From Pontibacter deserti (GTDB lineage: Bacteria; Bacteroidota; Bacteroidia; Cytophagales; Hymenobacteraceae), in contig NZ_JALPRS010000001.1 in NCBI RefSeq assembly GCF_023630255.1, positions 2,356,001 to 2,420,000 on the forward strand: DNA of 64,000 nucleotides, in the 5' to 3' direction. A program made the position numbers and the translations under genes. Every line of letters begins with the position of its first letter. Position 1 is the first letter of the stretch. The notes under the pieces are model-generated. The model had not been told where the DNA came from. It ran no database searches and saw only the letters and a list, made by a program, of their open reading frames with translations. Below, in pieces: positions 41,516 to 57,149 of the stretch.

Positions 41516-41716
41516 TTACTGAACAGTAGTAGTAGTGTCAGTAGTAGTAGCAGTAGTATCTACTGTAGTTGCAGCAGTATCAACTGTAGTTTCTTCAATT
41601 GTAGTCTCTTCAGTAGTCTCAGTAGTAGTTTCTTCAGTAGTTGCTTCTTTGTTTTCGCAAGCAGAGAAAGTAACAAGAGCGAAAGCTACAACAGCGAATT
41701 TGAATAAATTTTTCAT
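41516..41716 (-). CDS. Thr/Glu-rich small lipoprotein
   Basis: A 66-residue protein from the ATG at 41714-41716. It has a lipoprotein signal (KNLFKFAVVAFALVTFSAC) with lipid-carrying Cys in TFSAC. The mature chain of about 47 residues is almost only Thr, Glu, Asp, Val and Ala (ETTTETTEETTIEETT and similar), so it should be disordered and acidic. An upstream in-frame codon at 41761 lies within the -10 element of a candidate ECF promoter (41757-41786) and is rejected. The gene is divergent from the ECF sigma factor gene, and both have the same promoter motif. Function unknown. Confidence 0.75.
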   Translation of the reverse strand: MKNLFKFAVVAFALVTFSACENKEATTEETTTETTEETTIEETTVDTAATTVDTTATTTDTTTTVQ

Positions 41717-41756
41717 TTTGTGTTTGTAATTAAGTGTTTTGGTTTCGATTTTGAAC

Positions 41757-41786
41757 TTCATACCAGAAATGCACAGAGGTAACCCA
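41757..41786 (-). promoter_or_regulatory. candidate ECF-sigma promoter, lipoprotein side
   Basis: On the minus strand TGGGTTAC (41779-41786), 15 bp, then GTATGAA (41757-41763). It matches the plus-strand element at 41819-41848 at all 14 positions of TGGGTTAC-N15-GTATnAA while the spacers differ. Transcription would start about 35 nt before the lipoprotein ATG. Confidence 0.6.
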
Positions 41787-41818
41787 CTTCAGAAAAAAAA
41801 TTTTAAAATATTTTTTGA

Positions 41819-41848
41819 TGGGTTACTATAACCACAAAAGCGTATTAA
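41819..41848 (+). promoter_or_regulatory. candidate ECF-sigma promoter, sigma operon side
   Basis: TGGGTTAC (41819-41826), 15 bp, then GTATTAA (41842-41848), directly upstream of the sigma factor ATG at 41861. It is the mirror partner of the element at 41757-41786 and suggests autoregulation. The 32 bp between the two -35 boxes are nearly pure A/T. Confidence 0.6.
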
Positions 41849-41860
41849 AACCAGAGCGGA

Positions 41861-42433
41861 ATGAAGAAAGGTTTGTATGAGACGGATGAGGCGATAATAG
41901 CAGGTATCCGATCCGGAGACGATCGGGCTTTGACTTATCTGTACAAACTCCACTTCCCGATGATTTCTCATTTTATACTTAGCAATAGCGGAACCGACGA
42001 CGAGGCTAAAGATATTTATCAGGAAGGCGTAATTGTTTTTTACGAAAAGATAAAGTCTGATAGCCTGGAGCTTACCTGCCAGATAAAGACATACTTATAC
42101 TCTGTATGCCGCAGGCTCTGGCTTAAAAGGTTAGCTGAAAAAGGCCGCTTCGCCACTAAAGTGGATGATGCCGAGAACTACCTGATGCTGGAAGAAGATG
42201 CCCCGCAGCAGGAAGAAAATGAACGAAGATTCGGGGTGATGGAAGATGCCATGAACCAATTAGGGGAACCTTGCAAAACACTTCTGGAAGATTATTACAT
42301 CCGGATGCAGAACATGCAGGACATTACCGACAGGTTTGGCTACACCAATACCGACACCGCCAAAAACCAGAAGTATAAATGCCTGCAGCGGCTTAAGAAA
42401 TTATTTTTTGCTGCTTACCAGGCAGAAGTATAG
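41861..42433 (+). CDS. ECF-type RNA polymerase sigma factor
   Basis: A 190-residue sigma-70 family factor with only regions 2 and 4. Region 2 covers about residues 8-85 (IAGIRSGDDRALTYLYKLHF, DEAKDIYQEGVIVFYEKI, IKTYLYSVCRRLWLKRL). Region 4 covers about 125-185 with the helix-turn-helix MQDITDRFGYTNTDTAKNQ followed by KYKCLQRLKKLFF. It is the first gene of a two-gene operon with a membrane anti-sigma/protease fusion 53 bp downstream, closed by the terminator at 43593-43634. Its own promoter carries the same motif as the divergent lipoprotein gene, which fits autoregulation. Confidence 0.92.
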   Translation: MKKGLYETDEAIIAGIRSGDDRALTYLYKLHFPMISHFILSNSGTDDEAKDIYQEGVIVFYEKIKSDSLELTCQIKTYLYSVCRRLWLKRLAEKGRFATKVDDAENYLMLEEDAPQQEENERRFGVMEDAMNQLGEPCKTLLEDYYIRMQNMQDITDRFGYTNTDTAKNQKYKCLQRLKKLFFAAYQAEV

Positions 42434-42486: not shown

Positions 42487-43569
42487 ATGGAATACCTGAT
42501 GTACGAACAAATAGAGCGGTACCTTTCCGGCAAAATGGTTGATGATGAAAAAGCAGCTTTCGAAGCGCTGATTCAGACAGACCTGCGGCTGGCTGAGCAA
42601 GTGAAAGAGCACCGAACTTTGCTGCAGGCCATGCAGCAATATGGTCAGCGCCAGGAGCTACGCAGCAAATTGAACTCCATTCACTCTAAGATGGAAGCCG
42701 AAGCTACTCACGTAGAACTTCCGATGTGGCGCGTATTCTGGAACCGCCATGCACAAACTATGGCTGTAGCTGCCAGCATTTCTTTATTATCTGTGTTTGG
42801 CACACTTTGGACCGTAGAGCAATTAAAAGCACCCGCACAGCAGCAAACTGCCCGTTACGTAGAGCTTCGCCGTGAAGTTGATAAGCTGAAAAAAGCACAG
42901 ACGGCTATTATTAAAGATATTAACAATACTACCAAGCCTGCTCCACGCCCTGCCCGTTTTAGCGGTACTGGTTTTGCCCTTAGCGCGAATGGTTACCTGG
43001 TTACCAGTTCGCACGTAGTGGAGGGCGCCGACTCCATCATGATCGAAAACACATCAGGAGCAAAGTATAAAGTAAGCGAAGTATACCGCGACCAGACCCA
43101 CGATTTGTCTATACTTAAAATAGAAGATCCGACCTTTGAAGGCTTTGGTAAATTACCTTATACTTTCAAAACTGCTGAATCTGATCTGGGCGAGATGGTT
43201 TATACCTTAGGCTATCCGCGCGAAGATGTAGTTTTTGGAGAAGGCTCACTTAGCTCTACTTCCGGTTTTGAAGGAGATACTACAGCTTACCAGATATCTA
43301 TACCGCTTAACCCTGGAAACAGCGGCGGCCCTTTACTGGATGACAAAGGTAATCTGATCGGTGTGATCAGCGGAAAGCAGGCAGGTCAGGAAGGTGCAGC
43401 CTTTGCTATTAAATCGGCTTACCTGTTACAGCTGATGAGCGAGTTACCGTTAGCCACTACCCTTTCGCCTTTATCGTTACCGAAACACAACACACTGGCC
43501 GGCAACAGCAGACCACAGCAACTCAAAAAACTTAAAGACTTTGTGTTTGTAGTGAAAGTATATAATTAG
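42487..43569 (+). CDS. membrane protein fusing anti-sigma-like domain to HtrA-type serine protease
   Basis: A 360-residue single-pass membrane protein. Residues 1-85 (YEQIERYLSGKMVDDEKAAF, EALIQTDLRLAEQV) look like the zinc-free anti-sigma domain common in Bacteroidetes and would be cytosolic. A membrane helix spans about 90-109. A coiled coil (about 118-147) leads into a trypsin-like S1C protease domain (about 157-335) with the triad His176 (VTSSHVVEG), Asp206 (THDLSILKI) and Ser279 (NPGNSGGPL). There is no PDZ domain. It is encoded directly after an ECF sigma factor. The likely role is to hold the sigma factor and release it by regulated proteolysis; this is inference. Confidence 0.85.
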   Translation: MEYLMYEQIERYLSGKMVDDEKAAFEALIQTDLRLAEQVKEHRTLLQAMQQYGQRQELRSKLNSIHSKMEAEATHVELPMWRVFWNRHAQTMAVAASISLLSVFGTLWTVEQLKAPAQQQTARYVELRREVDKLKKAQTAIIKDINNTTKPAPRPARFSGTGFALSANGYLVTSSHVVEGADSIMIENTSGAKYKVSEVYRDQTHDLSILKIEDPTFEGFGKLPYTFKTAESDLGEMVYTLGYPREDVVFGEGSLSSTSGFEGDTTAYQISIPLNPGNSGGPLLDDKGNLIGVISGKQAGQEGAAFAIKSAYLLQLMSELPLATTLSPLSLPKHNTLAGNSRPQQLKKLKDFVFVVKVYN

Positions 43570-43721: not shown

Positions 43722-44384
43722 ATGAGAGAGAGAATGTTAAATCCGATTGCTGCTTTGGCGGTAACATCTTGCATAATGTTGTTTGGCTGCGCTGGCTCCG
43801 ATACTACAGATAGCAGCACAACAGACACAACCATGAGCGAAACCCAGACAATGGAAGGCGATGTGGCAGCAGAGGATGCAGGAATGGAAGCTGAAGCCGA
43901 GATCAACTACGATGACATGTTTGAGACAATGGGCAATACAAAGCAATATGATGTTGTTGCCTTAGCCAACTCTAATCAAAACCTATCTACTTTCGTGTCG
44001 CTTCTGGAAAAAGCTGAGATTGAAGATGTATTGAAATCCGGAGGTCCTTTTACTGTTTTTATACCTACCAATAATGCATTTAATAAGTTAAGTAAAGAAC
44101 AGCTGAATACATTAACAGACCCTAAAAATAAGGTACAGCTCGTACAGGTATTGCAAGCTCACATTATACCGTCTAAAGTATATGCGGCCGACTTTAAAGA
44201 TGCCCAAACTATAAAAACGGCAGAAGGCAACATAATTAACGTGCTGGTAGAGCCAAACAATAATGTAACTATAGGCGGTGCCAGAATTGTTAAGCCCAAT
44301 GTAGAGGTATCGAATGGTGTGGTACACATTGTAGATAATGTAGTAACAGCCAGCAACGCTGATGGTGGCTTGATTGACAGATAG
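43722..44384 (+). CDS. fasciclin-domain lipoprotein
   Basis: A 220-residue lipoprotein. The signal ends in the lipobox LFGC (Cys23). A Ser/Thr/Asp/Glu-rich linker follows (about 24-70), then one fasciclin (FAS1) domain (about 75-215) with the H1 region ALANSNQNLSTFVSLLEKA and GPFTVFIPTNNAFNKL, and the H2-like region NVEVSNGVVHIVDNVV. FAS1 domains mediate adhesion or protein contact. It is a monocistronic gene between two terminators. Small FAS1 proteins are frequent in Bacteroidetes; a stress link is suggested only by its neighbours. Confidence 0.93.
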   Translation: MRERMLNPIAALAVTSCIMLFGCAGSDTTDSSTTDTTMSETQTMEGDVAAEDAGMEAEAEINYDDMFETMGNTKQYDVVALANSNQNLSTFVSLLEKAEIEDVLKSGGPFTVFIPTNNAFNKLSKEQLNTLTDPKNKVQLVQVLQAHIIPSKVYAADFKDAQTIKTAEGNIINVLVEPNNNVTIGGARIVKPNVEVSNGVVHIVDNVVTASNADGGLIDR

Positions 44385-45910: not shown

Positions 45911-46513
45911 ATGAAAAGAATGTTTTATGCTGCACTCTTGGTTGCAGCTACTACCGTTGCAGCCTGCACTCCGGATAAAAAAACAGAAGACACTGAAGTT
46001 GTGGAAGCTGCAGAGGCTGCAGAAGAAGAAACTGGCTCTGAGACCGCAGCCGATACTACCCTTACAGACGACAAGAAAGAATTTATGAAGCAACTGGCGC
46101 AGCATAACCTGCTACAGATTGCCATTGGCAGGCTGGCATCCACAAAAAGCACCAATAACGAAGTAAAACAGAATGGCCAGCAGATGGTGCAACTCTATAC
46201 TAATAGCCAGACCAAACTACAGGACTTAGCCCAATCATATGGTATGCCGCTTGACACAGTGCTGCAGGAGGATTATCGTAAACATATAGAAGACCTTACA
46301 AAATTAAAGGCAGCTGATTTTGACAAGAAATACCTGGAGAAAGTAACAGATGTGCAAAAAGACGCTTTAGACTCATTTGACGGCGTACTGAAAGACAATG
46401 CTGAAGCAGATGCAACTGCATTTGGCTTATGGGCAAGAACATCAGAAAAAGAACTACGGGCACAATATGAGCAGGCACTTACCAGACAACAACAGCTGAA
46501 AAACGATCAGTAA
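45911..46513 (+). CDS. DUF4142 lipoprotein
   Basis: A 200-residue protein with a lipoprotein signal (AALLVAATTVAAC, Cys19) and an acidic linker (about 24-58). It carries one DUF4142 domain, a ferritin-like four-helix bundle of unknown function: DKKEFMKQLAQHNLLQIAIG, NNEVKQNGQQMVQLYTNSQT, DFDKKYLEKVTDVQKDALD. It is likely anchored in the outer or inner membrane facing the periplasm. The gene is convergent with the SGNH esterase gene, 17 bp apart. Similar genes are often found among envelope-stress genes. Confidence 0.92.
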   Translation: MKRMFYAALLVAATTVAACTPDKKTEDTEVVEAAEAAEEETGSETAADTTLTDDKKEFMKQLAQHNLLQIAIGRLASTKSTNNEVKQNGQQMVQLYTNSQTKLQDLAQSYGMPLDTVLQEDYRKHIEDLTKLKAADFDKKYLEKVTDVQKDALDSFDGVLKDNAEADATAFGLWARTSEKELRAQYEQALTRQQQLKNDQ

Positions 46514-57130: not shown

Positions 57131-57149
57131 TTTTATGCCCAGTGATTTA

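Follow-up and report, generated by a model that had tools for sequence, protein, structure and literature searches.

The gap at 41717-41860 of the window, the whole stretch of 64,000 nucleotides from Pontibacter deserti that was analyzed, lies between two divergent genes: a lipoprotein gene on the minus strand, which most likely starts with the ATG at 41716, and an ECF sigma factor gene on the plus strand with its ATG at 41861. Two matching pairs of boxes in this gap point outward, one on each strand, and raise the question of whether they are promoters, which sigma factor reads them, and which other genes carry them. Most of the ECF sigma factors in Bacteroidota are uncharacterized. We regard it as highly probable that the sigma factor encoded at 41861 reads the boxes as promoters and that they belong to an autoregulated envelope switch that contains its own site-1-type protease and has lipoproteins as its output. 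The identity of the promoters and the composition of the regulon are well supported by sequence comparison. The two-box promoter upstream of the sigma gene itself is present by sequence conservation; the sigma factor would be the protein that binds the boxes and would activate its own gene.

Two divergent pairs of boxes in the gap

The gap and its flanking genes contain the following features.

41516..41716, minus strand: small lipoprotein 1, 66 aa, beginning MKNLFKF, with lipobox FSAC and a Thr/Glu-rich tail with D(S/T)x motifs
41757..41763, minus strand: -10-type box GTATGAA of the lipoprotein promoter (sequence and comparison)
41779..41786, minus strand: -35-type box TGGGTTAC of the lipoprotein promoter, core GGGTTAC at 41785-41779 (sequence and comparison)
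41819..41826, plus strand: -35-type box TGGGTTAC of the sigma-operon promoter, conserved core GGGTTAC at 41820-41826 (sequence and comparison)
41842..41848, plus strand: -10-type box GTATTAA of the sigma-operon promoter, 12 nt 5' of the ATG (sequence and comparison)
41861..42433, plus strand: ECF-type sigma factor, 190 aa; TIGR02937 (sigma70-ECF) at 57.9 bits, above the cut-off of 42.9, over residues 23-180; PF04542 (region 2) at 24.5 bits, cut-off 24

The coordinates, letters, and 15-nt spacers that the earlier note had given for TGGGTTAC-N15-GTATnAA on each strand were all exact, and no primary-sigma TAnnTTTG box was identified within 41717-41860, as it had also claimed. We scanned the genome with pattern and profile searches. 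Across the whole genome (4,149,358 bases), this 14-position pattern had 2 exact matches, both in the gap, and its reversed control had none. By a rough estimate from composition, about 0.0002 inverted pairs of the observed layout would be expected in the gap, and 0.002 if any spacer of 10-20 were accepted. With up to 2 mismatches allowed, 60 matches were identified in the genome vs 30 for the control, and loose matches are therefore mostly noise. Six matches had 1 mismatch: 3 inside genes were rejected as promoters (L033, L035, and L037), as were 1 located 106 nt before an unrelated ORF (L034) and 1 in the window at 57132, immediately 3' of a gene; the sixth is the promoter of a second lipoprotein gene. 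An Rfam search of 2 loci returned rRNA only.

One part of the described motif did not hold. The leading T, which had been counted among its fixed positions, was present in 82% of sigma promoters and 26% of lipoprotein promoters between species; it is not conserved, and the core is therefore GGGTTAC-N15-GTATnAA.

The sigma factor and its relatives

No Pfam model of region 4 matched the sigma factor, though the TIGR02937 match extends across most of the protein, and we counted this against our preferred reading. The genome carries 15 sigma70-family genes above the cut-off, and the box lies upstream of this one only, with 0 mismatches of 13 here and at least 2 in the best upstream site of each of the other 14. 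Together with the conservation of the boxes, this agrees with the proposal that they mark a sigma factor with its own promoter specificity. The 14 further sigma70-family genes, and the cross-talk between ECF factors that is common in other bacteria, speak for promoters read by another ECF sigma factor, with this sigma gene as a mere cascade target. We consider this improbable, as the box is upstream of none of those 14 genes, no second close relative of this sigma factor was identified in the genome, and the box tracks this sigma lineage across the order, sister clade included.

Among order-level relatives of the sigma factor, GGTTAC-N14..17-GTATnAA was identified upstream with at most 1 mismatch in 16 of 20, compared with 0.3% of shuffles. 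The protease fusion described below accompanied all six relatives at 48-59% identity, whose spacers measured 15-16. At 33-43% identity, most relatives had 16- or 17-nt spacers and were paired with a membrane protein that lacks the protease, so this type of promoter probably predates the fusion. Other families of the order contain a sister clade of the sigma factor (L110-L121) that carries GGTTAC-N16/17-GTATnAA upstream of its own genes and is paired with a non-protease membrane partner.

Conservation in Pontibacter and the family

We located 30 congeneric gaps via the sigma protein, which is 72-93% identical in named Pontibacter relatives, and both promoters were kept in all 30 gaps aligned. 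Across 50 genomes of the genus, GGGTTAC-N15-GTATNAA had 147 matches vs 4 for the reversed control; both local promoters were exact in 49, and the remaining genome (G019) has a lipoprotein promoter with a 16-nt spacer. In pairwise comparison, the two spacers were 52% and 62% identical, third codon positions of the sigma gene 56%, and the boxes 100%, a value that follows from pattern-based selection, yet no locus failed the pattern. The comparison with related species that the earlier note had proposed as a check thus found both boxes conserved in orthologous gaps and the spacers not.

The same held in other genera of the family, including Hymenobacter, Adhaeribacter, and Rufibacter, where the spacers diverge while the boxes stay and the orthologous gaps have a divergent lipoprotein of the same type. 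The sigma promoter had 0 mismatches in 52 and 1 mismatch in 4 of 56 loci from these genera and other named relatives, and the lipoprotein promoter had 0 mismatches in 30 and 1 in 23 of 53 loci. Of 1060 shuffled controls, only 1 reached this level, with no more than a single mismatch across the two boxes. The presumed 5' leader of the lipoprotein (41717-41750), 3' of the -10 box, has 76% identity in the genus, above that of the promoter spacer, and is perhaps conserved as a translation signal.

Promoters beyond the gap

The genome-wide motif search, suggested earlier as a further check, identified additional promoters before a second lipoprotein gene of the same type and before a DUF2062 gene; these regulon members, like the protease-bearing anti-sigma candidate, were absent from the earlier note. 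A profile built from 65 promoters and run against this genome ranked lipoprotein 2 first (E 0.0015), followed by lipoprotein 1 (0.0043), the sigma gene (0.0073), and site C1:1351977 (0.16).

The -35 box of the lipoprotein 2 promoter starts 51-67 nt before the start codon, and the promoter recurs in the genus. We found 30 lipoprotein 2 orthologues independently, via a neighboring RNase D-like gene: 19 had an exact promoter, 2 a relaxed one, 8 had GGGTTAC with GAATAAA 15 nt on, and 1 lacked the -35 box. The replacement of GTATnAA in 8 of 30 and the loss of the box in 1 were counted against the preferred reading. In one Pontibacter clade (L157, L162, L166-L168, L170, L171, and L173), the lipoprotein 2 promoter carries GAATAAA at the usual distance together with GTATAA close behind the -35 box, which makes it a natural -10 variant.

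Site C1:1351977 precedes a gene for a DUF2062 membrane protein (G000:C1:1351373-1351861; PF09835 at 43.3 bits, above the gathering cut-off of 27.4). These promoters were scored with GGTTAC and 15 or 16 nt, a GGG start and a fixed 15-nt spacer understating the match, and GGTTAC-N15/16-GTATnAA with at most 1 mismatch was present upstream in all 30 Pontibacter orthologues examined (22 exact), vs 0.2% of shuffles. The box before DUF2062 is absent in several genera, which also counts against our reading.

The boxes of the gap form an inverted pair around an AT-rich center, as expected if a DNA-binding regulator, either an activator or a repressor, used the GGGTTAC boxes as its operator and they were not parts of sigma-factor promoters. 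However, the distance from -35 box to -35 box varies from 33 to 44 nt among the 30 Pontibacter gaps, while each box retains its GTATnAA partner 15-16 nt on; lipoprotein 2 and DUF2062 are also each preceded by a lone box that points the way of transcription, and the box precedes sigma relatives without a divergent partner. An operator is accordingly very unlikely in our estimation. Chance resemblance of two AT-rich stretches, to which the abundance of matches with up to 2 mismatches and the near-match at 57132 might point, is refuted because both boxes are kept in orthologous gaps across the family and recur before alike genes, and we give it next to no credence. Under the preferred reading of ECF promoters, the sigma factor and its protease-bearing membrane partner seem to run a very small envelope program.

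The presumed membrane partner of the sigma factor

The second gene of the operon encodes a candidate anti-sigma factor with a predicted protease domain.

42487..43569, plus strand: anti-sigma candidate fused to a DegS-like protease, 360 aa (profiles, triad, structure model)
42487..42702, plus strand: cytoplasmic helical anti-sigma-like domain, residues 1-72 (profile match; three helices in the model)
42757..42816, plus strand: single hydrophobic segment, about residues 91-110, presumed membrane anchor
42961..43425, plus strand: periplasmic trypsin-like domain, residues 159-313, with His176/Asp206/Ser279 (PF13365 at 84.7 bits)

The N-terminal 64 columns matched the N-termini of sister anti-sigma candidates with a probability of 97.8% (E 9.8e-13), and the match to the anti-sigma model NF052375, at E 6.8e-5, was below its cut-off and was counted against the preferred reading. 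His176, Asp206, and Ser279 were invariant in 87 of 87 sequences. A structure model computed from 30 sequences had a mean pLDDT of 70, low in the membrane stalk, and its best match among solved structures was DegS without the PDZ domain; a sequence profile matched DegP, DegQ, AlgW, and DegS. No PDZ domain was identified in any of 30 members, and the partner is not classed as DegS for the reason that this domain was looked for and is missing; its score against TIGR02038 was 58.8 bits, with a cut-off of 422.95. The partner is predicted to inhibit the sigma factor, and the protease domain to be active and to act in this control.

The lipoproteins

Lipoprotein 1 scored 43.4 bits against NF050142 (PG1828-family), under the cut-off of 50; it is like these lipoproteins in leader and length and unlike them in that score. 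Lipoprotein 2 is also small, with a tail rich in Thr, Glu, and Asp, and these three residues make up 53-59% of the mature parts of the lipoproteins. The pattern D(S/T)(A/I/L/V/M/T) is the Bacteroides-type O-glycosylation motif. It was observed 63 times in lipoprotein 1 of Pontibacter vs 13 in shuffled tails, 71 vs 31 times in lipoprotein 2, and 88 vs 42 times in other genera, counts that were never reached in 2000 shuffles and that are not independent, because the lipoprotein sequences are related. The motif excess suggests that the lipoproteins are glycosylated.

Proposed mechanism

In the mechanism that we propose, the sigma factor would drive its own operon, comprising sigma factor and anti-sigma/protease fusion, and, divergently, lipoprotein 1, and would also drive lipoprotein 2 and the DUF2062 membrane-protein gene elsewhere in the genome. 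The N-terminal domain of the partner would most likely hold the sigma factor at the inner membrane. The signal is probably a fault of the envelope or of a lipoprotein; an envelope fault would trigger the periplasmic DegS-like protease domain, and the tether would be cut by the protein itself, by a neighboring copy, or by a follow-on protease. The freed sigma factor would then raise expression of its own operon, both lipoproteins, and DUF2062.

A more specific version is tentative and, in our view, rather doubtful: the partner may be an anti-sigma factor with its own site-1 protease that cleaves its own stalk, either within one molecule or from copy to copy, upon a fault of the envelope or of lipoprotein export, and the output may be unstructured, acidic, probably O-glycosylated surface lipoproteins plus DUF2062, forming a self-contained loop of lipoprotein homeostasis.

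Comparison with known systems

We compared the arrangement with the Sigma-E / RseA / DegS system of E. coli, whose way of working it would share. As in that system, and in AlgU / MucA / AlgW of Pseudomonas, an ECF sigma factor is encoded with a single-pass membrane anti-sigma candidate; also shared are a periplasm-facing HtrA-type serine protease, here a predicted domain, and an envelope output, here a proposed one. In contrast, the anti-sigma candidate and the protease are here one polypeptide without a PDZ domain, the promoter reads GGGTTAC-N15-GTATnAA, and very few regulon genes were identified.

Within Bacteroidota, a survey of ECF factors placed only 6% beside class I anti-sigma domains (PMC7406223). 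An ECF sigma factor is likewise coupled to an anti-sigma factor of unusual build in a Bacteroidales pair that BcpT induces, that is related to EcfO/Reo, and that responds to envelope damage, but that anti-sigma factor reaches the outer membrane with a C-terminal beta-barrel, whereas the partner described here ends in a trypsin-like protease (PMC9308784). The SM6 ECF promoters of Flavobacterium psychrophilum, defined by a CGT box within the -10 region and serving type IX secretion genes, are also ECF-type promoters of Bacteroidota, and one SM6 site lies before a sigma/anti-sigma pair; the promoters described here differ from them in having GGGTTAC-N15-GTATnAA and in preceding lipoprotein genes (PMC9723704). 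Our literature search identified no description of the motif, of such a protease-fused anti-sigma factor, of the regulon, or of DUF2062 regulation, and a catalogue entry for the ECF group and motif is possible.

Because the promoter, the small regulon, and the protease-fused anti-sigma candidate are conserved in the family and open to a joint reading, the system lends itself to direct tests. A 29-bp promoter is available as a reporter, along with a predicted catalytic residue, and the system gives a candidate role to lipoproteins and a DUF2062 protein that have so far had none.

Neighboring and lineage-specific genes

Genes for a fasciclin-domain protein (43722-44384) and a DUF4142 protein (45911-46513) lie 3' of the operon; both products are acidic and lipoprotein-like with a Thr-rich N-terminus, and neither gene had a match in the promoter profile scan of the genome. 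Extra copies of lipoprotein 1 in 3 genomes (G024, G025, and G064) are lineage-specific additions. Also lineage-specific is a polysaccharide-biosynthesis gene (PF02719) located 13-14 nt after a box in 7 Pontibacter genomes (L124-L130); its products resemble UDP-GlcNAc 4,6-dehydratases, and the boxes are constant while the spacers differ, possibly linking the sigma factor to surface glycans in this one clade.
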